From Deltaproteobacteria bacterium (GTDB taxonomy: Bacteria > Desulfobacterota > Syntrophobacteria > Syntrophobacterales > Syntrophobacteraceae), in the NCBI GenBank assembly GCA_021793275.1, contig JAJYTC010000033.1:1-32792 (forward strand): a DNA stretch of 32,792 nt, read 5' to 3'. Position 1 is the first letter of the stretch, and each line of letters starts with the position of its first letter. The notes below the pieces were generated by a model. That model saw only the letters and a program-made list of their open reading frames with translations. It was not told the DNA's origin and did no database searches. Positions 1,842-14,382 of the stretch are shown here, one piece after another. Position numbers and translations under genes: made by a program.

Positions 1842-3188
1842 GTGAATTTCCCCCAAGCCCTTTCCATCCTGGTCGTAGATGATGAGCCCAATATTCGAAA
1901 GACGCTCGGCATCGTGCTTGAATCCGAAGGCCATTATGTTATCGCGGCAGGCAACCCCAAAGATGCCCTTGCTGAGGCCGGTGAACGCTATTTCGATCTC
2001 GCGCTGGTTGACCTTCGCCTTGGTTCGGAATCGGGGTTGGACCTGATCGGAGACCTTCAGTCGCTGTGCCCGTGGATCAAGTGCATAGTGATCACCGCCT
2101 ATGCTTCGATTGACACGGCGGTCGAAGCGATGCGCAGAGGCGCCTTTGACTACCTGCCTAAGCCTTTCACAAACGATCAGGTTTCCGCTCTCGTCGGCAA
2201 GGTCTTAGAGATCAGGACGCTGGAACAGAAAGTTGCCGCTCTTCAGGAAAGATTGAAAGAGCTTGTCCCCGAGGCGATTATCGAAAGCAGGAGCCCAGCC
2301 ATGCAGCGGGCCCTGGCCATGGCGCGCCAAGTTGCCGACAGCGAAGCCACCATCCTCATTTGTGGTGAAAGCGGGACCGGAAAAACCATCCTTGCCCGCG
2401 CGCTCCACTCCTGGAGCAGCAGGTCGGCAAAGCCGTTTGGCGAAATATCTTGTCCGTCGCTTTCTTCCGAACTGCTCGAAAGCGAACTTTTCGGCCATGC
2501 CAAAGGGGCCTATACCGGGGCGTTGCGCGATTATCCCGGACGCATCGCCGCCTGCGAGGGCGGTACCCTCTTTCTGGATGAAATCGGTGACCTGCCGTTG
2601 CCGATCCAGGCCAAGCTGCTTCGGGTCCTCCAGGAAAAGGCCTACGAACGCGTTGGCGAACTGAAAACCCGCAAAGCCGATGTAAGGATCATAACGGCTA
2701 CCAATATCGACCTCGAATCTGCGATCGGAGCGGGAAGGTTTCGTGAGGACCTTTTCTACAGGCTGGATGTGGTCACGATCGTGCTGCCCCCCCTTAGAGA
2801 GCGCCGCGAGGATATTGTCGCGCTGGCCGAGTCTCTTCTCGCTTTTTTCGCACGACAAAACAACAGGCGGATTCTGGGATTTTCGAAAGATGCTCGCGAA
2901 ATTCTCGAAAACTACGAATGGCCGGGCAATGTGAGGGAACTGCGTAATGCCGTCGAACGCTCGGTGCTGTTGTGCAAGGAATCGCTGGTCGGCATTCATC
3001 ATTTGCCCGTCAAGCTCAAGTCCGTCAATCGCGGGCCGGAAGCCGGAGACTTCGTTACGATGGAAGAGCTGGAGAGGACCCACATCAGACGGGTGTTGGC
3101 ATCGAGCAGATCAATCGAGGAGGCCTGCCGCATTCTGGGGATGGATTCGGTCACTCTTTGGCGCAAGCGTAAAAGATATGGACTCTAG
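1842..3188 (+). CDS. AlgB-like sigma-54-dependent response regulator (NtrC family)
   Basis: This 448-residue protein starts at GTG 1842, with a Shine-Dalgarno-like AAGGAG at 1822-1827. Residues about 7-125 are a receiver domain with acidic residues D13/D14, phosphoacceptor D57 and a late lysine in LPKPF. Residues about 150-390 are a sigma-54 AAA+ domain with Walker A GESGTGKT, the sigma-54 contact loop GAYTGA and Walker B GGTLFLDE. The last 40 residues form a Fis-type helix-turn-helix. The receiver wording (LRLG...GLDLI, PWIK..VITAYASIDTAVEAM) resembles Pseudomonas AlgB more than NtrC. It should hydrolyse ATP to open sigma-54 promoters when phosphorylated, probably by the kinase encoded next. 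The intergenic region downstream carries sites such a protein could bind. The partner and targets are inferred. Confidence 0.93.
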   Translation: MNFPQALSILVVDDEPNIRKTLGIVLESEGHYVIAAGNPKDALAEAGERYFDLALVDLRLGSESGLDLIGDLQSLCPWIKCIVITAYASIDTAVEAMRRGAFDYLPKPFTNDQVSALVGKVLEIRTLEQKVAALQERLKELVPEAIIESRSPAMQRALAMARQVADSEATILICGESGTGKTILARALHSWSSRSAKPFGEISCPSLSSELLESELFGHAKGAYTGALRDYPGRIAACEGGTLFLDEIGDLPLPIQAKLLRVLQEKAYERVGELKTRKADVRIITATNIDLESAIGAGRFREDLFYRLDVVTIVLPPLRERREDIVALAESLLAFFARQNNRRILGFSKDAREILENYEWPGNVRELRNAVERSVLLCKESLVGIHHLPVKLKSVNRGPEAGDFVTMEELERTHIRRVLASSRSIEEACRILGMDSVTLWRKRKRYGL

Positions 3189-3224
3189 TCTCGCGTCTCG
3201 AAAACGACGTGAGGGTGCTTAATA

Positions 3225-3250
3225 CGTCCTATCCGTCCTATCCGTCCTAT
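3225..3250. repeat. 9-bp tandem repeat, three copies (CGTCCTATC)
   Basis: The unit CGTCCTATC occurs three times in a row, with only the last base of the third copy changed. It lies in the gap between the response regulator and the kinase. The core GTCCTAT recurs with the same 9-nt period inside the MepA/LysM gene near 22.05 kb. Confidence 0.9.
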
Positions 3251-3276
3251 ATTATTATTATGAGTGTCGCGGAACA

Positions 3277-3320
3277 TTTCATTTTGAAACTCTGAGGATT
3301 CTCTATCTTTCATTTTGAAA
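3277..3320. promoter_or_regulatory. Two identical 13-bp operator-like sites (candidate enhancer)
   Basis: TTTCATTTTGAAA occurs at 3277-3289 and again at 3308-3320, exactly 31 bp apart (about three helical turns). Each site has inverted TTTCA/TGAAA arms. They lie about 100-145 bp upstream of the expected start of transcription from the -24/-12 element at 3395. Tandem dyad sites at that distance are the usual enhancer layout for NtrC-family activators, so the adjacent AlgB-like regulator is the natural candidate. The binding protein is an inference. Confidence 0.6.
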
Positions 3321-3394
3321 TCCCATATGCGCCCCCGCTCCGGCTGTCATCAACCAATACATTGAAATTCCCGGACTTTGCCTTACTATGCTCT

Positions 3395-3410
3395 TGGTAT
3401 ATGATTTGCC
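3395..3410 (+). promoter_or_regulatory. Candidate sigma-54 (-24/-12) promoter of the sensor kinase
   Basis: TGGTATATGATTTGCC fits the sigma-54 consensus TGGCACRNNNNTTGCW. The invariant GG (3396-3397) and GC (3408-3409) are exactly 10 bp apart, and the TTGC block is intact. The predicted start of transcription is near 3421, just before the kinase start codon at 3439. A sigma-70 reading (TTGCCT at 3378, 16 bp, TATGAT at 3400) overlaps it and cannot be excluded. Confidence 0.6.
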
Positions 3411-3438
3411 ATAGAGAGCCTGATGAAGGACATACGGA

Positions 3439-5277
3439 ATGAGACTGAGAACTAAACTTGTCATGGCTTCCTGTGGCCCGCTTCTGATGCTTCTGGTGGT
3501 CGGCATTATCACCGTCAGGACCGTCGGGAAATCGAGCAGGCAGCTCCATGCGCTTTTCCTCAAGGGTCGCCACAGCGTGGCCGCCTGCATGAACATGAAG
3601 CAGGCGATTGAGCAAATCCAGCGAAGCGCTCAGGCTTATGTTTGGGCGGACAATGTTGCGATGTCCGATATAAACTCGGCCGTTGTCAAGTTCTCCAACA
3701 ATCTCGAACGTGAGCGGAGCAATGCCTCTTTCCCGGGCGAGCCTGAGCTTGTCCGACGACTGGCGCAATCGTGGGAAGCCTTAAGAAAAGAGCTCGAAAG
3801 CTTTCAGAAGTTGTCCGGTACAACCGCTCGCCGGGATTTCTATGTGACCCGGTTGTTGCCGCGATCGAGCGCTATTCTCGATCTGGCGCAGCAGATCATC
3901 GAAATAAACTTGAACAATATGGTCTACAGCGATAGTCAGTTCCGCCAGCAGGTCGCGGCGATCAATCGCGAAGTCATGGTCCTCATCGTGGCGGGAATCG
4001 TCCTGGGGTTGATATTCATCATAATTACGGGACCCTCCATAGTCAGGCCCATATCCAATCTAACCCGCTCGGTGAAGGAAATTCAGCAGGGAAACCTGGA
4101 TCTTGTGGTAAAGGCCGGATCGGGGGATGAAATCGGCCAGCTTGCCTCCGCTTTTAACGATATGACTTCCACACTCCGCGAGTTCAGGCGGACGAGTCGC
4201 GCCCGGCTCATCCGATCTCAAAAAGGCACCCTCTCGGCCCTGAACTCCCTTCCCGACGCTGTTATCATCTGCAATCCCACGGGCCATATCGAGATTTCAA
4301 ACGAATTTGCCCAAAGCCTGTTTAATCTCAAAACGGGAACAACCATTGAGTCGGTCGAAAACGAAAAGATCCGCGAACTCTTTGAGCGCGTGCTTGTCGA
4401 ACGCCGTCCCGTTCTACTGAAAACATACGACTCGGCTATCCAAATTTTTAAAGACGGTGAGGAACATTTCTTCCTTCCCGAGGCTGTCCCCATACTCGAT
4501 GAAGAAAGACGGCTTATCGGGGTCACCCTCATCCTCTCCGACGTCACCCGGCTAAGACGGATCGATGAACTCAAAAGCGGCCTGATATCGACTGTTTCGC
4601 ATGAACTCAAGACTCCTCTGACCTCCATCAGGCTTGCAACCCATGTGCTTCTTACCGAAAAGCTCGGGCCGCTAAGCCCGAAGCAGGCCGAACTGGTCGT
4701 GGCCGCCCGGGATGACAGCGACCGGCTCTACCATATAATCGAGAACCTGCTCGATATCCACAAACTGGAGTCCGGGGCGTCGCGAATCGAAATTGTCCCC
4801 ATGAGTCCCGAGCAGTTTCTGCTGAGTGTTATCGAGGAAATGAGGCCCGCTTATGCGGACAGAGGAGTTTCGCTCGTCCTCGACCTTCCGGGCGATATCC
4901 CCGAAGTCCTCGCCGACAAGCTGAGAATGGAGATCGTTTTTTCCAACCTCCTCAGCAACGGGCTCAAATTTACCTCGCCGGGCGGACAGGTGAGAGTTTC
5001 CGTCGCAATCGACAAGGAGCTTGTCCTTTTCACCGTCGAGGATACCGGCTTGGGAATATCTGAAGAGTACCTTCCGCACATCTTCGAAAAATTTTTCCGG
5101 GTGCCGGGACAGGGCAGGGAGAGCACCACCGGATTGGGCCTCGCGATAGTCAAAGAAATAATCGAGACCCACGGCAGCAGGATCGAGGTGAGCAGCAAGC
5201 CGGGGGAAGGCACCAGGTTTTCATTCACTCTTAAACCGGCCGATGGCGCTTCGCACCATTTATCGGTTGCAAGCTAG
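3439..5277 (+). CDS. KinB-like membrane sensor histidine kinase
   Basis: The product has 612 residues and starts at ATG 3439 after a GAAGGA ribosome-binding site. Two transmembrane segments (about 7-28 and 177-200) bracket a roughly 145-residue, probably periplasmic, helical sensor region. A HAMP domain follows (about 200-250), then a PAS domain (about 270-370). The HisKA domain has the phosphorylated histidine H388 in SHELKTPL. The ATPase domain has N-box NLLSNGLKF, G1 DTGLGIS and G2 TGLGLAI. Architecture and pairing with the upstream AlgB-like regulator resemble Pseudomonas KinB. The kinase is followed after 110 bp by the kdp genes, which suggests a link to potassium or osmotic sensing. The ligand is unknown. 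Confidence 0.93.
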   Translation: MRLRTKLVMASCGPLLMLLVVGIITVRTVGKSSRQLHALFLKGRHSVAACMNMKQAIEQIQRSAQAYVWADNVAMSDINSAVVKFSNNLERERSNASFPGEPELVRRLAQSWEALRKELESFQKLSGTTARRDFYVTRLLPRSSAILDLAQQIIEINLNNMVYSDSQFRQQVAAINREVMVLIVAGIVLGLIFIIITGPSIVRPISNLTRSVKEIQQGNLDLVVKAGSGDEIGQLASAFNDMTSTLREFRRTSRARLIRSQKGTLSALNSLPDAVIICNPTGHIEISNEFAQSLFNLKTGTTIESVENEKIRELFERVLVERRPVLLKTYDSAIQIFKDGEEHFFLPEAVPILDEERRLIGVTLILSDVTRLRRIDELKSGLISTVSHELKTPLTSIRLATHVLLTEKLGPLSPKQAELVVAARDDSDRLYHIIENLLDIHKLESGASRIEIVPMSPEQFLLSVIEEMRPAYADRGVSLVLDLPGDIPEVLADKLRMEIVFSNLLSNGLKFTSPGGQVRVSVAIDKELVLFTVEDTGLGISEEYLPHIFEKFFRVPGQGRESTTGLGLAIVKEIIETHGSRIEVSSKPGEGTRFSFTLKPADGASHHLSVAS

Positions 5278-5312
5278 CCGGAAGGGCATGTCGGAAAAGA
5301 GTGGTATTTTGT

Positions 5313-5336: not shown

Positions 5337-5387
5337 CCGGCCACCCTGTGCTCCGAATCCGACAAACCTGCGGCGAGGAGGATCATT

Positions 5388-5480
5388 GTGTTTACGGACG
5401 CATTATACGTTGGCATTTTTATCGGGTTTTTCATTCTTTCCGGATTGTACGTGCTTTTTTTGGAGACTGAGAGAAGATGA
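5388..5480 (+). CDS. 30-residue membrane micro-protein at the head of the kdp operon
   Basis: A GTG at 5388 sits 6 bp after a perfect AGGAGG (5376-5381) and opens a 30-codon frame ending TGA 5478-5480. The product starts MFTDALYVGIF and ends LFLETERR. It is essentially one transmembrane helix with a charged C-terminal end. Its stop overlaps the kdpF start codon in an ATGA, which indicates translational coupling. Short single-helix ORFs directly upstream of kdpF occur in other bacteria to my knowledge, but I cannot name a family for this one. A role in assembly or stability of the Kdp complex is inference. The strong ribosome-binding site and coupling make it more likely real than chance. Confidence 0.68.
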   Translation: MFTDALYVGIFIGFFILSGLYVLFLETERR

Positions 5481-5563
5481 TCGCAGACATAATCGTAGGG
5501 ATCATAGTAGTCGCCCTGATCGTTTATCTTTTCTGGGTGCTCATACGACCTGAAGACTTTTAA
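5477..5563 (+). CDS. kdpF: KdpF, small stabilising subunit of the K+-transporting ATPase
   Basis: The product has 28 residues with a single hydrophobic helix and ends RPEDF, the usual kind of KdpF ending. It overlaps the preceding micro-ORF (ATGA at 5477-5480) and stops 11 bp before kdpA, whose ribosome-binding site AAGGAGG overlaps the kdpF stop. KdpF is a peripheral lipid-like stabiliser of the KdpABC complex in the inner membrane. The length matches the E. coli protein (29 residues). Confidence 0.85.
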   Translation: MIADIIVGIIVVALIVYLFWVLIRPEDF

Positions 5564-5574
5564 GGAGGATTTGA

Positions 5575-7350
5575 ATGCATGCCATGGGCTGGATTCAACT
5601 GGCAGTATTCACTGTCGTTCTGTTGGCTGTCACCAAGCCGCTCGGACTCTACCTCGTGCGGGTGCTCGACCCCGAGGGGCGAACATATCTCGAACCGGTT
5701 TTAAAGCCGGTGGAAAGGCTCGTCTATACCTGCATTGGCGCTGAAAGGACCAGGGAGCAGGACTGGAAAGGCTATGCCGCTTCAGTCATCGTGTTCAGTC
5801 TGATAGGGGCGCTTTTCACCTATGCCCTCCTCAGGCTGCAGCAATTCCTGCCCCTCAATCCTCAGCACTTCGGCGCCGTTTCGCCCGATCTTTCCTTCAA
5901 CACGGCTTCGAGCTTCACCACCAATACCAACTGGCAAAACTACGGCGGCGAAACCACCATGTCCTATTTGTCGCAGATGGTGGCCCTCGCTTCGCATAAT
6001 TTCTTTTCGGCCGCCATCGGCATTTCGGTTGCCGCCGCGCTCGTGCGCGGAATAGCAAGGCAGAAAACAAAGCTTCTGGGAAATTTCTGGGTCGATCTCA
6101 CCCGGGTTTGCCTCTACCTGTTGCTGCCGATCTGCCTGGTTTACGCTGTTTTCCTGGTTTCACAGGGCGCTATCCAGAATTTTAAGCCTTATGCGACGGC
6201 CCACGTTGTGGATCCTTATTCCGTGCAGATCCCGGAGAAAACCGCGGGAAAAACCGCCATGGTGAAAAAAGAAATAGCGACTCAGTCGATCGCCATGGGT
6301 CCGGTCGCCTCGCAGGAAGCGATTAAGGATTTGGGCACCAACGGAGGCGGGTTCATGAATGCCAATTCCGCGCACCCCTATGAAAACCCCACACCCCTGT
6401 CCAACTTTATCGAAATGCTTTCGATAGTTGCGATCGGAAGCGGCCTTACTTACTACCTTGGCCGCATGGTGGGAAACCAGAAGCACGGCTGGTCGCTCTG
6501 GTCCGCCATGTTCATATTGTTTCTTGCCGGCGTAATGATCTGCTGGTGGTCCGAATCCCGTGGCAATCCGCGCCTGACCGCCCTTGGCGTGTCCTCGCAC
6601 CAGGGCAATATGGAGGGCAAGGAGGCCCGCTTCGGAGTCTTCAATTCCGCCCTCTTTGCGACGGTTACAACCGATACCTCCTGCGGCGCGGTTAACTCGA
6701 TGTTCGATTCCTATCTGCCGATCGGTGGTTTGGTGCCGCTCTTTAACATGCACATGGGATGCAATGTCTTTGGCGGTGTAGGGTCCGGTCTTTACGGCAT
6801 GCTCATCTTTGTCGTGCTTGCCATCTTTCTCGCGGGTCTTATGATCGGGCGAACGCCGGAGTATCTGGGCAAAAAACTCGAATCATATGATGTGAAGGTC
6901 TCGGTGCTGGCTATTCTCATTCCTTCAGCGCTCGCTCTCGGATTTACGGCCCTTGCATGTGTGACCAAATGGGGGCTGGCGGGGCGCGGTAACTTCGGCC
7001 CGCACGGCTTTAGCGAAATCCTCTACGCCTTTACCTCGTGCATCAATAACAACGGCAGTGCTTTCGCCGGGCTGAACGGAAACACTCCGCCCTATAACAC
7101 CACCCTTGGCCTGACAATGCTTGTCGGTCGTTACTTTGTGATGGTCCCGGTATTGGCGCTCGCAGGAAACCTTGCCCAAAAGAAGGCTGTCCCGGTGAGC
7201 AGCGGAAGCATGCCTGTCTCGGGTGTAACCTTTACCCTGCTGATTATCGGCACCCTGGTCATTATCGGGGCGCTTACCTTCTTTCCCGCAGTGAGCCTCG
7301 GCCCGATTGTGGAACACTTCCTGATGGTGAATTCGACCAAGCTTTTTTGA
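5575..7350 (+). CDS. kdpA: KdpA, potassium-translocating subunit of the Kdp ATPase
   Basis: The product has 591 residues (E. coli KdpA 557) and starts at ATG 5575, 6 bp after AAGGAGG. It is highly hydrophobic, with about ten membrane helices, and belongs to the superfamily of K+ transporters with four pseudo-repeated pore loops. The four selectivity-filter regions are recognisable: SFTTNTNWQNYGGE, KDLGTNGGGFMNANSAHP, TDTSCGAVNSM and NNNGSAFAGL. It binds K+ from the periplasm with high affinity and passes it towards KdpB. It is the first large gene of a tight kdpFABCD operon, with 12 bp to kdpB. Confidence 0.98.
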   Translation: MHAMGWIQLAVFTVVLLAVTKPLGLYLVRVLDPEGRTYLEPVLKPVERLVYTCIGAERTREQDWKGYAASVIVFSLIGALFTYALLRLQQFLPLNPQHFGAVSPDLSFNTASSFTTNTNWQNYGGETTMSYLSQMVALASHNFFSAAIGISVAAALVRGIARQKTKLLGNFWVDLTRVCLYLLLPICLVYAVFLVSQGAIQNFKPYATAHVVDPYSVQIPEKTAGKTAMVKKEIATQSIAMGPVASQEAIKDLGTNGGGFMNANSAHPYENPTPLSNFIEMLSIVAIGSGLTYYLGRMVGNQKHGWSLWSAMFILFLAGVMICWWSESRGNPRLTALGVSSHQGNMEGKEARFGVFNSALFATVTTDTSCGAVNSMFDSYLPIGGLVPLFNMHMGCNVFGGVGSGLYGMLIFVVLAIFLAGLMIGRTPEYLGKKLESYDVKVSVLAILIPSALALGFTALACVTKWGLAGRGNFGPHGFSEILYAFTSCINNNGSAFAGLNGNTPPYNTTLGLTMLVGRYFVMVPVLALAGNLAQKKAVPVSSGSMPVSGVTFTLLIIGTLVIIGALTFFPAVSLGPIVEHFLMVNSTKLF

Positions 7351-7362
7351 GGGGTAGACGAG

Positions 7363-9387
<2,025 letters not shown>

Positions 9388-9398
9388 GAGGACGAATT

Positions 9399-10055
9399 AT
9401 GAACATAAAATCGTTGATTCAGGAAATGAGGGCCTCGGTCGCCGTGATATTCATCCTGGGACTGGTGCTGTGCGGGGCCTATCCGCTCGTCGTGTGGGGA
9501 ATTGGACAGATCGCGTTCCATAACCGGGCGAACGGCTCGCTTATCGAGGTGAACGGAAAAGTAGTGGGCAGCAGCCTCCTGGCGCAGAATTTTACCGGCA
9601 AGCAGTACTTTCACCCGCGTCCTTCGGCTGCCGGCACTTACGGCTATGACGCCGCCGATTCCGGCGGAAGCAACCTGGGACCGCTTTCAAAAGAACTCTA
9701 TGACGAGGTGAAGGCGCGGGTTAAGGCTTATAGGGCCGAAAACAACCTTGCGCCGTCCGTAAAGGTCCCCGCGGATGCGGTCACCGCCTCGGCAAGCGGT
9801 CTCGATCCGAACATCTCCGTGAGAAATGCCGAGCTGCAGGCGCCCAGGGTGGCGCAGGCAAGGGGAATGCCGGTAGCTGAGCTCCGAAACTACATCAGCA
9901 AATTTACGACAGGCCGACAACTGGGTTTTTTAGGTGAGCCTCGGGTCAATGTTTTAAGGCTCAACCTGGCACTCGACCAAAGCAATAAACAAAAAACCGG
10001 AAATTCAATCGGCACTGAAGCGGGAGGTCCCAATGGCCGAAGACAAGGCCCTTAG
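9399..10055 (+). CDS. kdpC: KdpC, K+-transporting ATPase subunit C
   Basis: The product has 218 residues, longer than the usual 190 or so. A single N-terminal membrane anchor (about 12-38) is followed by the periplasmic KdpC domain with the conserved regions GSxLxAQNFT, YFHPRPSAA, ASGLDPNIS and VNVLRLNLALD. KdpC stabilises the complex and raises K+/ATP affinity. The normal family end falls at the LNLALD segment. A further 24 or so polar residues follow, and the last codons overlap the kdpD start by 23 bp, so this tail may be partly a by-product of the overlapping kdpD ribosome-binding and start region. An AGGAGG sits 7 bp before the ATG. Confidence 0.97.
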   Translation: MNIKSLIQEMRASVAVIFILGLVLCGAYPLVVWGIGQIAFHNRANGSLIEVNGKVVGSSLLAQNFTGKQYFHPRPSAAGTYGYDAADSGGSNLGPLSKELYDEVKARVKAYRAENNLAPSVKVPADAVTASASGLDPNISVRNAELQAPRVAQARGMPVAELRNYISKFTTGRQLGFLGEPRVNVLRLNLALDQSNKQKTGNSIGTEAGGPNGRRQGP

Positions 10056-11217
10056 CTTTCTCCAGTTGATCCGCCGCGCTCAACGCGGCAAACTCAAGGT
10101 TTATCTTGGCTACGGACCCGGAGTCGGCAAAACCTGGCAGATGCTCTTGGAGGGGCATCGCCTCAGGGAAGCGGGCGTCGATGTCGTTGTCGGTCTGGTG
10201 GAAACTCATGGGAGGGCCGAAACCGCTAAGCTGGTCGAAGGTCTGGAAGTCGTCCCGAGAAAGCAGATTAACTACCGGGGGATACTGCTGGAGGAAATGG
10301 ACCTCGACGCCCTGCTGGCTCGGCATCCCGAAGTGGCGCTGGTCGATGAACTGGCCCATACGAACGTTCCCGGAGGCGAGAACGCAAAAAGGTATCAGGA
10401 CGTGCAGGATCTGCTCGCGGCCGGCATTCACGTTATCACCACCATGAATGTTCAGCACCTGGAAAGCCTGTACGATACGGTGGAGAAGTTGGTCGGCGTT
10501 AAAGTGCACGAGCGGCTGCCCGATTCGATTCTCGCCGAAGCAGACGAGATAGTAAACGTCGACCTTGCGCCCGAAGACCTTCATCAGCGTATGAAAGAGG
10601 GGAGAATCTATCCCGGGGAAAGAGTGTCCACGGCCCTGGAAAATTTCTTCAAGCGCAATAACTTGAATGAGTTGCGCGAACTGGCTTTCCGGGAGCTTGC
10701 ATCTCAGATCGACCTCAAGCGCCGGAGCACTCCCCAGGAGGAGCAGTCGACCGCCCCCGACCAGGTGATGGTATGTCTCAGTTCGCGCGGCCCTAACAGC
10801 GCAGGTCTTTTGCGCTACGGATCGAGGCTTGCCGGTCGCTTGAACCGCAACTGGTACGCCGTTTATGTGCAGCGGCCTTCCGAATCTCCTACGGCCATCG
10901 ATGCCACCACCCAGCGCTATCTCTCCGAGACCCTTACTCTGGCCAACGCCCTTGGCGCCATTGTCTTTACCTATAAGGGCGAGGATATTGTCGACACCAT
11001 CCTCCATTTCGCAGCCGAATACCGTGTGGGGCATATCGTGATCGGCAGGCCGGGTCCTCTTTCGTTATGGAAACGGCTGCTCGGACGAAAAACGGTCGTC
11101 GAACGGTTGATTCTAAAAGCGCACGGATTGACCGTAGTCGTGGTGGACGCCAAAGCCGAACCAAAAGCGGCAGGTATCGACAAACAGCAACAGTCGCTCG
11201 ATTATGCGGCGGCTTAA
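10033..11217 (+). CDS. kdpD: Truncated KdpD: sensor/ATP-binding domain plus universal stress domain, no kinase
   Basis: The product has 394 residues, whereas full KdpD is about 890. Residues 18-230 form the KdpD N-terminal domain with Walker A GPGVGKT (28-34) and Walker B-like LVDELAHTN. Residues about 250-375 form a universal-stress-protein-like domain with an IVIGRPG segment. The four-helix membrane region, histidine phosphotransfer domain and ATPase domain are all absent. No remnants follow the TAA at 11215, because a convergent gene begins within 45 bp. Such short KdpD proteins are known in several lineages and are thought to modulate another kinase or the pump. With no kdpE here, the KinB-like kinase upstream is the obvious possible partner (inference). 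Confidence 0.92.
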   Translation: MAEDKALSFLQLIRRAQRGKLKVYLGYGPGVGKTWQMLLEGHRLREAGVDVVVGLVETHGRAETAKLVEGLEVVPRKQINYRGILLEEMDLDALLARHPEVALVDELAHTNVPGGENAKRYQDVQDLLAAGIHVITTMNVQHLESLYDTVEKLVGVKVHERLPDSILAEADEIVNVDLAPEDLHQRMKEGRIYPGERVSTALENFFKRNNLNELRELAFRELASQIDLKRRSTPQEEQSTAPDQVMVCLSSRGPNSAGLLRYGSRLAGRLNRNWYAVYVQRPSESPTAIDATTQRYLSETLTLANALGAIVFTYKGEDIVDTILHFAAEYRVGHIVIGRPGPLSLWKRLLGRKTVVERLILKAHGLTVVVVDAKAEPKAAGIDKQQQSLDYAAA

Positions 11218-11259
11218 TGGCCTCGACTATTGTAACGTGATCGCTAACCCGTTCACCAA

Positions 11260-11610
11260 TCAAGGTTTTATATAGGCAAATCCATCCTGCTGGAGACGAA
11301 CCAGTTCCACAATTCCCGCGGGTACCACCTCACAGCCTTCGATCAGCTCATCGCGCCCGATGTGAAGGCCGGTAAGGGAGTTGTTACAGAGCAGCAAGCG
11401 CAGGCCTTTGTCGCGCAATTCCGCGATCCGGGCATCTGTGGAGAGCGCGGAACGCTTTTCGAAAAGCCTGACTGCCTGCCCGTTGGCCAGCACGCAGACC
11501 TGGGCGTCTTTCCCGAAAGGGTCTTTTAGCAGGTTTAAAATGTTATTAAGCGCCATGTTCATTCGATCGGGATCATTCCAGTCAAGATGGAAAACGACTT
11601 TACAACCCAT
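11260..11610 (-). CDS. DsrE-like small protein
   Basis: The best start is the ATG at 11610, just after AGGAG (11616-11620), giving 116 residues. A longer frame to 11775 lacks such support. The sequence has the alternating strand/helix pattern of DsrE/DsrF-like proteins (HLDWNDPDRMNMALNNI near the N-terminus, GIVELVRLQQDGFAYIKP at the end), with a conserved-looking cysteine in LLLCNNSL. These are cytoplasmic proteins related to sulfur-relay subunits, and single stand-alone members have no firm function. It is convergent with kdpD (42 bp apart) and divergent from the hybrid kinase gene, so it is probably monocistronic. Confidence 0.85.
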   Translation of the reverse strand: MGCKVVFHLDWNDPDRMNMALNNILNLLKDPFGKDAQVCVLANGQAVRLFEKRSALSTDARIAELRDKGLRLLLCNNSLTGLHIGRDELIEGCEVVPAGIVELVRLQQDGFAYIKP

Positions 11611-11760
11611 GGAAGCTCCTTTCTCGCATGTTGATAATTCTCTCCTGTTACAAATTGATTTTTCGGCGTATTTTTTATCATAAAGTAACTTTTTGACGAT
11701 ATTGAAAAGTAAGGTTGCCGGTCCTCGGGATCGCCTGCGCCCGAACGGGGGGCGCGAAGG

Positions 11761-14382
11761 GTGTGTAGCGTGCAAATGAAGCGTAACTCACAAAACCCTA
11801 TGTTGAAGCAGAGAAAAAGGCTTTCGCTTAAAGTCAGCCTGGTCTACGCCGTATTGGGATCGATCTGGATTTTTTTATCCGATAAATTGACGGCAATGAT
11901 CTCACCTGACCCTGCATTCCTTGTGCGCATCTCCATAATAAAAGGGTTGGCGTTCGTCCTGTTCACGGCAATCCTTCTCTACATCATGATCCGTAGGGAC
12001 ATTTTCCGGCTCATGGATATAGAGGCTGCGCTGCGCGAGAGCGAGGCTGAATATAGAGAACTGGTTGAAAATGCCGACAGCATTATCCTGAGGATGGACA
12101 CCGAAGGCAATCTGACTTTTGTCAACGAGTACGGCCTGCGTTTTTTCGGCTATCGCCAGGAAGAATTACTTGGCAGAAACGTTGTAGGCGCCATCGTTCG
12201 GGAAAGGCAATCCACGACCTCCGTGGACCCGAAAGTGAAGATCGAGCAGATCTGTGTGGACCCGGAGCGCCATGCTAAAAATGTTTGCGAAAATATGCTG
12301 CGCAGCGGTGAAAGTGTTTGGATCGCATGGACCAATAAGCCTGTTCGTAAAAATGGGCGGGTCGAAGAAATCCTCAGCGTAGGAATTGATCTCACCGAGC
12401 GAAAACAGGCTGAGGATGCACTCAAACGTGCAAACATCCTGCTGCGAACTCTACAGGAAGCTTCGATCGGCGGTATCCTGGCGATCGATGAAAACGAAGT
12501 TATCATATCTTCAAACCAGCGGCTTCCTGCCATGTGGGGTTTTCCCGGAGTACTGGCGGCCGAAGGGCTCAACTGCCGTCCTGTGCTCGAAGCGATTGCT
12601 GAAAAAGTGAGAGGATCGGAGGAGTTTTTCGAACCTATGCTCCGCGTTGATTCAGACGGGGGCGAAACCAGCCTGGAGGAGATGGATCTCAAAGACGGGA
12701 GGGTCTTTGAAGGCTACTCTGCGCCGATCAATGGTGCGGATGGAAAGTACTATGGGCGGGTGTGGCATTTTCGCGACATTACCGAGCGCAATCTCATGGA
12801 AAGAGCCGCCGCGGAGGCCGAGGAGAAATACAGGCACATATTTGAGAATTCCATAATCGGCATATTCCAGATCAGCCGGGAGGGACATTTCCTGAGCCTC
12901 AATCACGCCATGGCCCGTGGTATGGGGTATGAATCACCGCAGGCTGCCTTGAGAGAAATCGGCAATGTAAAAGGGCTCTTCGTGCGCCCGGAACGCCATG
13001 TGGATCTTCTCAGCCTTACAAAAAAGCACGGATTGGTCGAGCAATTCGAGGTCGAGCTTTTCAGGAAGGACAAAAGCGTCATTTGGGGCAGCCTGAACCT
13101 TAGCATCGTTAAAGGAACAGACGGAAGGACCGCTTACCTGGAGGGAGCGATGCAGGACATTACCGACAGTAAGCTCCTCAGGGCACGACTGGACCAGGCG
13201 CAGAGAATGGAGGCCATCGGCACGCTGGCCGGAGGCATCGCTCACGATTTCAACAATATCCTTACGCCGATAATCGGCTACACCGAACTTTCTCTCATGT
13301 CGACCCCCGAAGACAGCAGGCTGGCCCACAACATGAGACAGGTCCTGCTTTCCGCCAATCGGGCAAGGGACCTCGTAAAGCGCATTCTAACCTTCAGCCG
13401 CGAGGCCGGGCATGAGCGAAAGCCCGTGCAGGTCAGCCTCGTCATAAGAGAAGTCCTTGATCTGCTCAGGTCTTCGCTGCCGGCCACCATCGAGATCCGT
13501 GAGGCCGTAGAAAAGAACGCGATCCACAGCACGATCATGGCCGAACCAGCCCAGATCCACCAGGTGCTCATGAACCTTTGTACAAATGCCGCGCATGCCA
13601 TGCGCGCAAAAGGCGGCACGCTCACCGTGGGCCTGGCCAACACCGAGGTTGGGCGGCCCGCCCAAAGAGGGGCGCCGGATATCGAGCCCGGACCTTACCT
13701 CAGGTTGACGGTTGCAGACACGGGTCACGGAATGGACGAGGCGGTAAGGGAGCGGATTTTCGACCCCTACTTTACCACTAAAGGCCCCGATGAAGGGACC
13801 GGACTCGGCCTCGCCGTTGTCTACGGGATCATAAAGAACCTCCGCGGGACAATCACGGTTTCAAGCAAGCCAGGACAAGGCGCCGCCTTTGACGTCTACT
13901 TCCCCGGGACCGAAACGATTCAGGCCTCTCAGTCGCTCTTGCCTGTGCCATCGCAGGCAGAATCGGGCCTGGTGCTCCTGGTCGATGACGAAAAGGCAAT
14001 AGTGGATATGACCAGGCAGATGCTCGAAACTCTTGGCTACGAAGTGGTCACCAGGCACAACGGCGCCGATGCCCTCGATGCTTTCCGGTCCGATCCGCAA
14101 GGCTTCGATGCGGTAATTACCGACATGACCATGCCTAACATGACGGGCGCCGACCTTGCCAGGGAAATGCTCGCGATCCGCAGCGATATTCCGATAATTC
14201 TTTCCACGGGATTTAGCGAGGGCTTTGACGAGAATAGTGCAAAAGCTTTGGGGATAAAGGCTTTTCTCATGAAACCCGTCGCCATGCGCGATCTCGCCTT
14301 CGTTTTGGGCAACGTTGTGGCCGGCGGCAAAAAACAAAAAGGCAAAGTAGACATGATAAGCGCGAACAGGCTGATTGCCTGA
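11761..14382 (+). CDS. PAS-rich hybrid sensor histidine kinase with C-terminal receiver
   Basis: The product has up to 873 residues. The frame opens with GTG 11761, but GTG 11770 or ATG 11776 fit the GAAGG at 11756-11760 better. Two membrane helices (about 25-47 and 58-80) have almost no loop between them, so sensing is probably cytoplasmic or within the membrane. Three PAS domains follow (about 90-215, 220-345, 350-475). The HisKA domain has H495 in GGIAHDFNN. The ATPase domain carries NLCTNAAHAM, DTGHGMDE and GTGLGLAV, and a receiver domain with D788 (VITDMTMPN) completes the protein. The kinase core is NtrB-like. No dedicated output gene is adjacent, so its target is unknown. It has its own intergenic upstream region. 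Confidence 0.92.
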   Translation: MCSVQMKRNSQNPMLKQRKRLSLKVSLVYAVLGSIWIFLSDKLTAMISPDPAFLVRISIIKGLAFVLFTAILLYIMIRRDIFRLMDIEAALRESEAEYRELVENADSIILRMDTEGNLTFVNEYGLRFFGYRQEELLGRNVVGAIVRERQSTTSVDPKVKIEQICVDPERHAKNVCENMLRSGESVWIAWTNKPVRKNGRVEEILSVGIDLTERKQAEDALKRANILLRTLQEASIGGILAIDENEVIISSNQRLPAMWGFPGVLAAEGLNCRPVLEAIAEKVRGSEEFFEPMLRVDSDGGETSLEEMDLKDGRVFEGYSAPINGADGKYYGRVWHFRDITERNLMERAAAEAEEKYRHIFENSIIGIFQISREGHFLSLNHAMARGMGYESPQAALREIGNVKGLFVRPERHVDLLSLTKKHGLVEQFEVELFRKDKSVIWGSLNLSIVKGTDGRTAYLEGAMQDITDSKLLRARLDQAQRMEAIGTLAGGIAHDFNNILTPIIGYTELSLMSTPEDSRLAHNMRQVLLSANRARDLVKRILTFSREAGHERKPVQVSLVIREVLDLLRSSLPATIEIREAVEKNAIHSTIMAEPAQIHQVLMNLCTNAAHAMRAKGGTLTVGLANTEVGRPAQRGAPDIEPGPYLRLTVADTGHGMDEAVRERIFDPYFTTKGPDEGTGLGLAVVYGIIKNLRGTITVSSKPGQGAAFDVYFPGTETIQASQSLLPVPSQAESGLVLLVDDEKAIVDMTRQMLETLGYEVVTRHNGADALDAFRSDPQGFDAVITDMTMPNMTGADLAREMLAIRSDIPIILSTGFSEGFDENSAKALGIKAFLMKPVAMRDLAFVLGNVVAGGKKQKGKVDMISANRLIA

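Follow-up and report, generated by a model that had tools for sequence, protein, structure and literature searches.

A short reading frame at positions 5388-5480 of the plus strand in the window (the whole stretch of DNA that was analysed, 32,792 nucleotides) can, on the sequence evidence given below, be taken with near certainty as a protein-coding gene directly upstream of kdpF. Its predicted product, called X here, is a membrane protein of 30 amino acids with one hydrophobic stretch (MFTDALYVGIFIGFFILSGLYVLFLETERR, the translation of window 5388-5480). The computed results concern the frame itself, its conservation, the selection acting on it and its linkage to kdp genes, and the reading that we prefer, with a probability of roughly 60%, is that X serves the Kdp pump as an accessory subunit or a partner. 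The features involved are as follows.

5376..5381, plus strand: Shine-Dalgarno AGGAGG, with a 6-base spacer to the GTG of X
5388..5480, plus strand: X (KdpZ-like), 30-aa single-helix membrane protein, GTG start and TGA stop, kept in relatives, pN/pS 0.31
5477..5480, plus strand: ATGA overlap between the stop of X (TGA, 5478-5480) and the ATG of kdpF (5477-5479)
5477..5563, plus strand: kdpF, 28 aa (PF09604, E 6.6e-9, above cut-off; TIGR02115, E 6.1e-8)
5575..7350, plus strand: kdpA, K+-binding subunit (PF03814, E 2.7e-230)
7363..9387, plus strand: kdpB, P-type ATPase subunit (TIGR01497)
9399..10055, plus strand: kdpC (TIGR00681)

An earlier sequence-only reading had described a GTG properly spaced from an AGGAGG and a stop codon overlapping the kdpF ATG, and both are present in the sequence at these coordinates. 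Signals resembling a Shine-Dalgarno sequence (AGGAGG or GGGAGG) can also be found 5' of the X start in several relatives. The frame stays open further 5', where a GTG at 5301 would give a 59-aa version; this longer form was rejected because the leader 5' of X is not conserved among the same-genus loci and similarity in the relatives starts in the region of 5388. Searches for a sigma-70 promoter or a sigma-54 site near X gave none on the plus strand there, and Rfam reported two tRNAs only over the whole window.

The same small frame can be found directly 5' of kdpF in other members of the genus and of the family (MDALYIGIFIGFFILAGVYTLFLESERK, MFWDVLYVGILIGFFILSGLYALFFESERK and others), and orthologues of X occupy this position in nearly all same-family kdp loci; X is absent from one same-family genome, L014. 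Over six same-genus loci, 28 codons align without a single insertion or deletion, 17 of the 35 variable columns are third codon positions (p = 0.012), and the pooled pN/pS, a Ka/Ks-type measure, is 0.31 for X versus 0.15 for kdpF. The X frame is under protein-level purifying selection. Conservation, selection and the lack of frame-breaking indels in these six loci support the earlier claim of a real small membrane protein beside kdpF.

Regarding the distribution of X beyond the family, regions upstream of kdpA were taken from named genome contigs, from drawn genomes of four phyla and from plasmids. X was recognized in 160 of the 200 KdpF-positive loci, a non-random sample whose named genomes were picked by KdpA similarity, so that this fraction is not an unbiased rate. 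By draw, X was present in 29/42 loci of Pseudomonadota, 16/19 of Chloroflexota, 8/10 of the window's own phylum and 6/23 of Bacteroidota, with further weak Bacteroidota homologues below threshold; it was absent from E. coli, from several other Pseudomonadota loci and from many Bacteroidota loci. A similar small frame occupies the same slot in Bacillota plasmid loci (Niallia, Listeria, Bacillus badius, Subdoligranulum). The seed profile gave a median of 24.8 bits on the gene strand and at most 5.6 bits on the opposite strand of the same regions. Since this profile was built from the surveyed loci themselves, a stricter held-out profile was built with Verrucomicrobiota and Acidobacteriota as its sole training groups; it matched in Pseudomonadota, Desulfobacterota, Chloroflexota, Bacteroidota, Deinococcota and others, with no opposite-strand match at 8 bits. 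With it, X was placed first among the 906 frames of the window (E = 9.5e-6; next frame 0.97), which takes X beyond chance. Single-helix frames of this kind, which the sequence-only reading had suggested looking for 5' of kdpF, therefore exist as homologues beside kdp genes in many phyla.

The shortness of X might suggest a frame open by chance, or an RNA element without protein product, but the peptide is conserved across phyla, its pN/pS and the strand control speak for a protein, and folding of the leader is no better than that of shuffled sequences (z -0.81), for which reason an RNA-structure leader was also rejected; such explanations are very unlikely. Mapped onto a 217-row tree of KdpA, X switches between present and absent 15 times, versus 57 times when shuffled, as expected of old inheritance with scattered losses and long retention with the pump. 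Since X is missing from E. coli, from L014 and from other loci, the pump can work without it.

Two roles had been proposed for the small frame, an additional small subunit or a coupling leader of kdpF. According to the second, ribosomes that finish X would start again on kdpF, and the X peptide would be inert. In the window, kdpF lacks a well-spaced Shine-Dalgarno sequence (a GGAG lies 11 bases away and a run of purines directly adjoins the ATG), and its start codon overlaps the stop of X, which makes coupling plausible; kdpF translation is probably coupled to X through the ATGA, as a local feature. Among 159 family loci, in which start codons were chosen by rule, X and kdpF overlap in 40, by 4 bases in 32 of these, whereas 119 have no overlap; gaps of 0-30 bases are seen in 111 of the 159. 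It is the amino acids that are conserved and not the junction. Moreover, X persists in loci that do not have it in front of kdpF or have the two far apart: the two small genes are swapped in L185 (463-661; kdpF-X-kdpA), X lies two kilobases from kdpF in L280 (2563-4957; kdpF-kdpB-X-kdpA, in a genome from the cyanobacterial/Melainabacterial draw), and it is far from kdpF in L030. In Deinococcus radiodurans, plasmid pMP1 (L112:401-687) has the order kdpB-X-kdpF-kdpA; the annotation table of the plasmid lists neither X nor kdpF, and the operon has been published as kdpBACD-N. X thus stays with the pump genes whichever gene comes next, as the orders in L185, L280 and D. radiodurans indicate, and because the overlap is not conserved and the orders are rearranged, leading kdpF is not the general role of X. 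An inert leader is accordingly a distinctly unlikely account of X, locally plausible as coupling may be, and of the two proposed roles we favour that of an additional small subunit.

Family members are short and their sequences weakly conserved, at a mean column identity of 27%; the consensus is made of an M-x-D start, FF, Y and a C-[ED]-[RK]-L end. Column frequencies over 159 members are 95% for D3, 78% for F13, 87% for F14, 67% for Y20 (F in 15%), 79% for C24, 89% for E/D25, 75% for R/K26 and 75% for L27. The window X shows the M-x-D start, a hydrophobic helix with FF and Y, and the C/F/L-[ED]-[RK] end; its genus lacks the common Cys24, position 24 being the one that deviates. It adjoins kdpF with a 4-base overlap, and adjacency to kdpF or kdpA is typical of the family. 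Conservation follows a helix period and concentrates on one face (p = 0.0085), which would fit a transmembrane helix packing that face onto a partner, and the charge of the two ends, acidic at the N-terminus and basic at the C-terminus, suggests an N-out/C-in topology.

In the accessory subunit reading, X would be made together with KdpF and KdpABC, and would probably have its N-terminus outside and its positively charged C-terminus inside. It would bind the membrane part of Kdp via the conserved face, formed by F6, F13/F14, the small residue 17, Y20 and C24 in family numbering, and would stabilise or tune the complex alongside KdpF. Translation, topology, binding and function are what we infer for X in this scheme. 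A bolder extension, to which we give somewhat less than even odds, is that the Kdp pump of most bacterial lineages is a five-protein complex, whose second one-helix subunit would have been lost in E. coli and some others.

X could also be imagined as a second copy of KdpF that arose by duplication, both being single helices of 25-35 aa, probably in the same orientation, and lying side by side. However, profile comparison gave no meaningful alignment (5 columns, probability 9.5%), and the C-terminal motifs differ (C-[ED]-R-L in X, R-P-E-K-F in KdpF). Homology was rejected on the profile comparison, and paralogy is very unlikely.

The surroundings of the kdp genes in the window include several regulatory genes.

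1842..3188, plus strand: NtrC-type sigma-54 response regulator (Pfam)
3439..5277, plus strand: HAMP-PAS histidine kinase, directly 5' of X (Pfam)
10033..11217, plus strand: KdpN-like protein, the N-terminal part of KdpD without histidine kinase, Walker A GYGPGVGKT in the translation (NF038185, E 2.2e-105, below the curated cut-off)

The KdpN-like gene overlaps kdpC by 23 bases (10033-10055) and a hybrid kinase gene lies 3' of it; over 1842-5277 and 10033-14382, the operon has no adjoining KdpDE pair. In several same-genus loci, the frames 5' of X resemble the end of the same HAMP-PAS kinase. In Rhizobium brockwellii (L108:2502-2657), a 51-aa hypothetical protein is encoded between kdpA and kdpB.

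That regulators flank the operon of the window lends some weight to another explanation, namely that X is a small membrane regulator, not a lasting subunit, with a sensor kinase, the KdpN serine-kinase protein or the turnover of the pump as its target. Membrane peptides of this size can act so, and KdpF has been reported as a regulatory peptide in mycobacteria (PMC3618439). However, X can be found beside kdp operons with very different neighbours, and it still adjoins pump genes where the operon is rearranged. We therefore regard a purely regulatory peptide as unlikely, albeit the strongest competitor of a pump subunit or partner.

Nearly all that is known of KdpFABC, a model P-type ATPase, comes from E. 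coli, which has kdpF and no X. Solved structures contain three distinct KdpA sequences, each a 557-aa chain, which we take to be those of E. coli; since E. coli lacks X, no solved KdpFABC structure could show it, and comparison of X with PDB chains gave no match. Searches of Pfam and NCBIfam with X and its family gave no family match, only scattered weak matches of one or two members, and X has no match to the KdpF models PF09604 and TIGR02115. A companion gene in many phyla for which these collections hold no model, X is a candidate missing component of the pump, and if the five-protein complex is true, a conserved component is missing from all structural and mechanistic models of KdpFABC. 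Furthermore, what is presumed to be 5' UTR before kdpF may be coding. The kdp leader of Caulobacter is about 100 nt long (PMC8552747), a length that may suffice for X.

With regard to annotation, most records leave X unannotated, including most Rhizobium records, and to this extent X was indeed overlooked. The description does not hold throughout: Burkholderiales records carry it under the name "potassium ABC transporter ATPase", and kdpZ was named long ago in Clostridium acetobutylicum. One such Burkholderiales protein (WP_338861741.1) belongs to the X family, with 25.7 bits to the profile, the same place and the same 4-base overlap with kdpF; its name is a misnomer for a protein of 34 residues, which is no ATPase and does not belong to the ABC proteins.

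Among known systems, KdpF resembles X in having about 30 residues, one helix, a place in the kdp operon beside kdpA and probably the same orientation; it differs in that the profiles reveal no sequence relation, the conserved motifs are not the same, and E. coli has KdpF and lacks X. The other comparison is with KdpZ. A 1997 report on C. acetobutylicum is said to have described two small hydrophobic ORFs, Z and Y, and a 2006 report reportedly named the operon of Alicyclobacillus acidocaldarius kdpZFABC-N. The C. acetobutylicum transcript is cited as kdpZYABCXDE in a Frontiers paper (PMC5401905). A literature search for a fifth subunit of Kdp, or for a homologue of X that bears a name, returned only kdpZ, within an operon name. 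Like X, KdpZ of C. acetobutylicum is the first small gene before a KdpF-type gene and kdpA, and loci of Clostridia and Bacilli (L278, L279, L271, L272) have an X-like ORF in the KdpZ slot. X is thus probably the little-studied KdpZ of C. acetobutylicum, an identity that rests on gene order, and what is usefully added to it here is a broad definition of the family, evidence of its independence from kdpF and the finding that the model organism lacks it.
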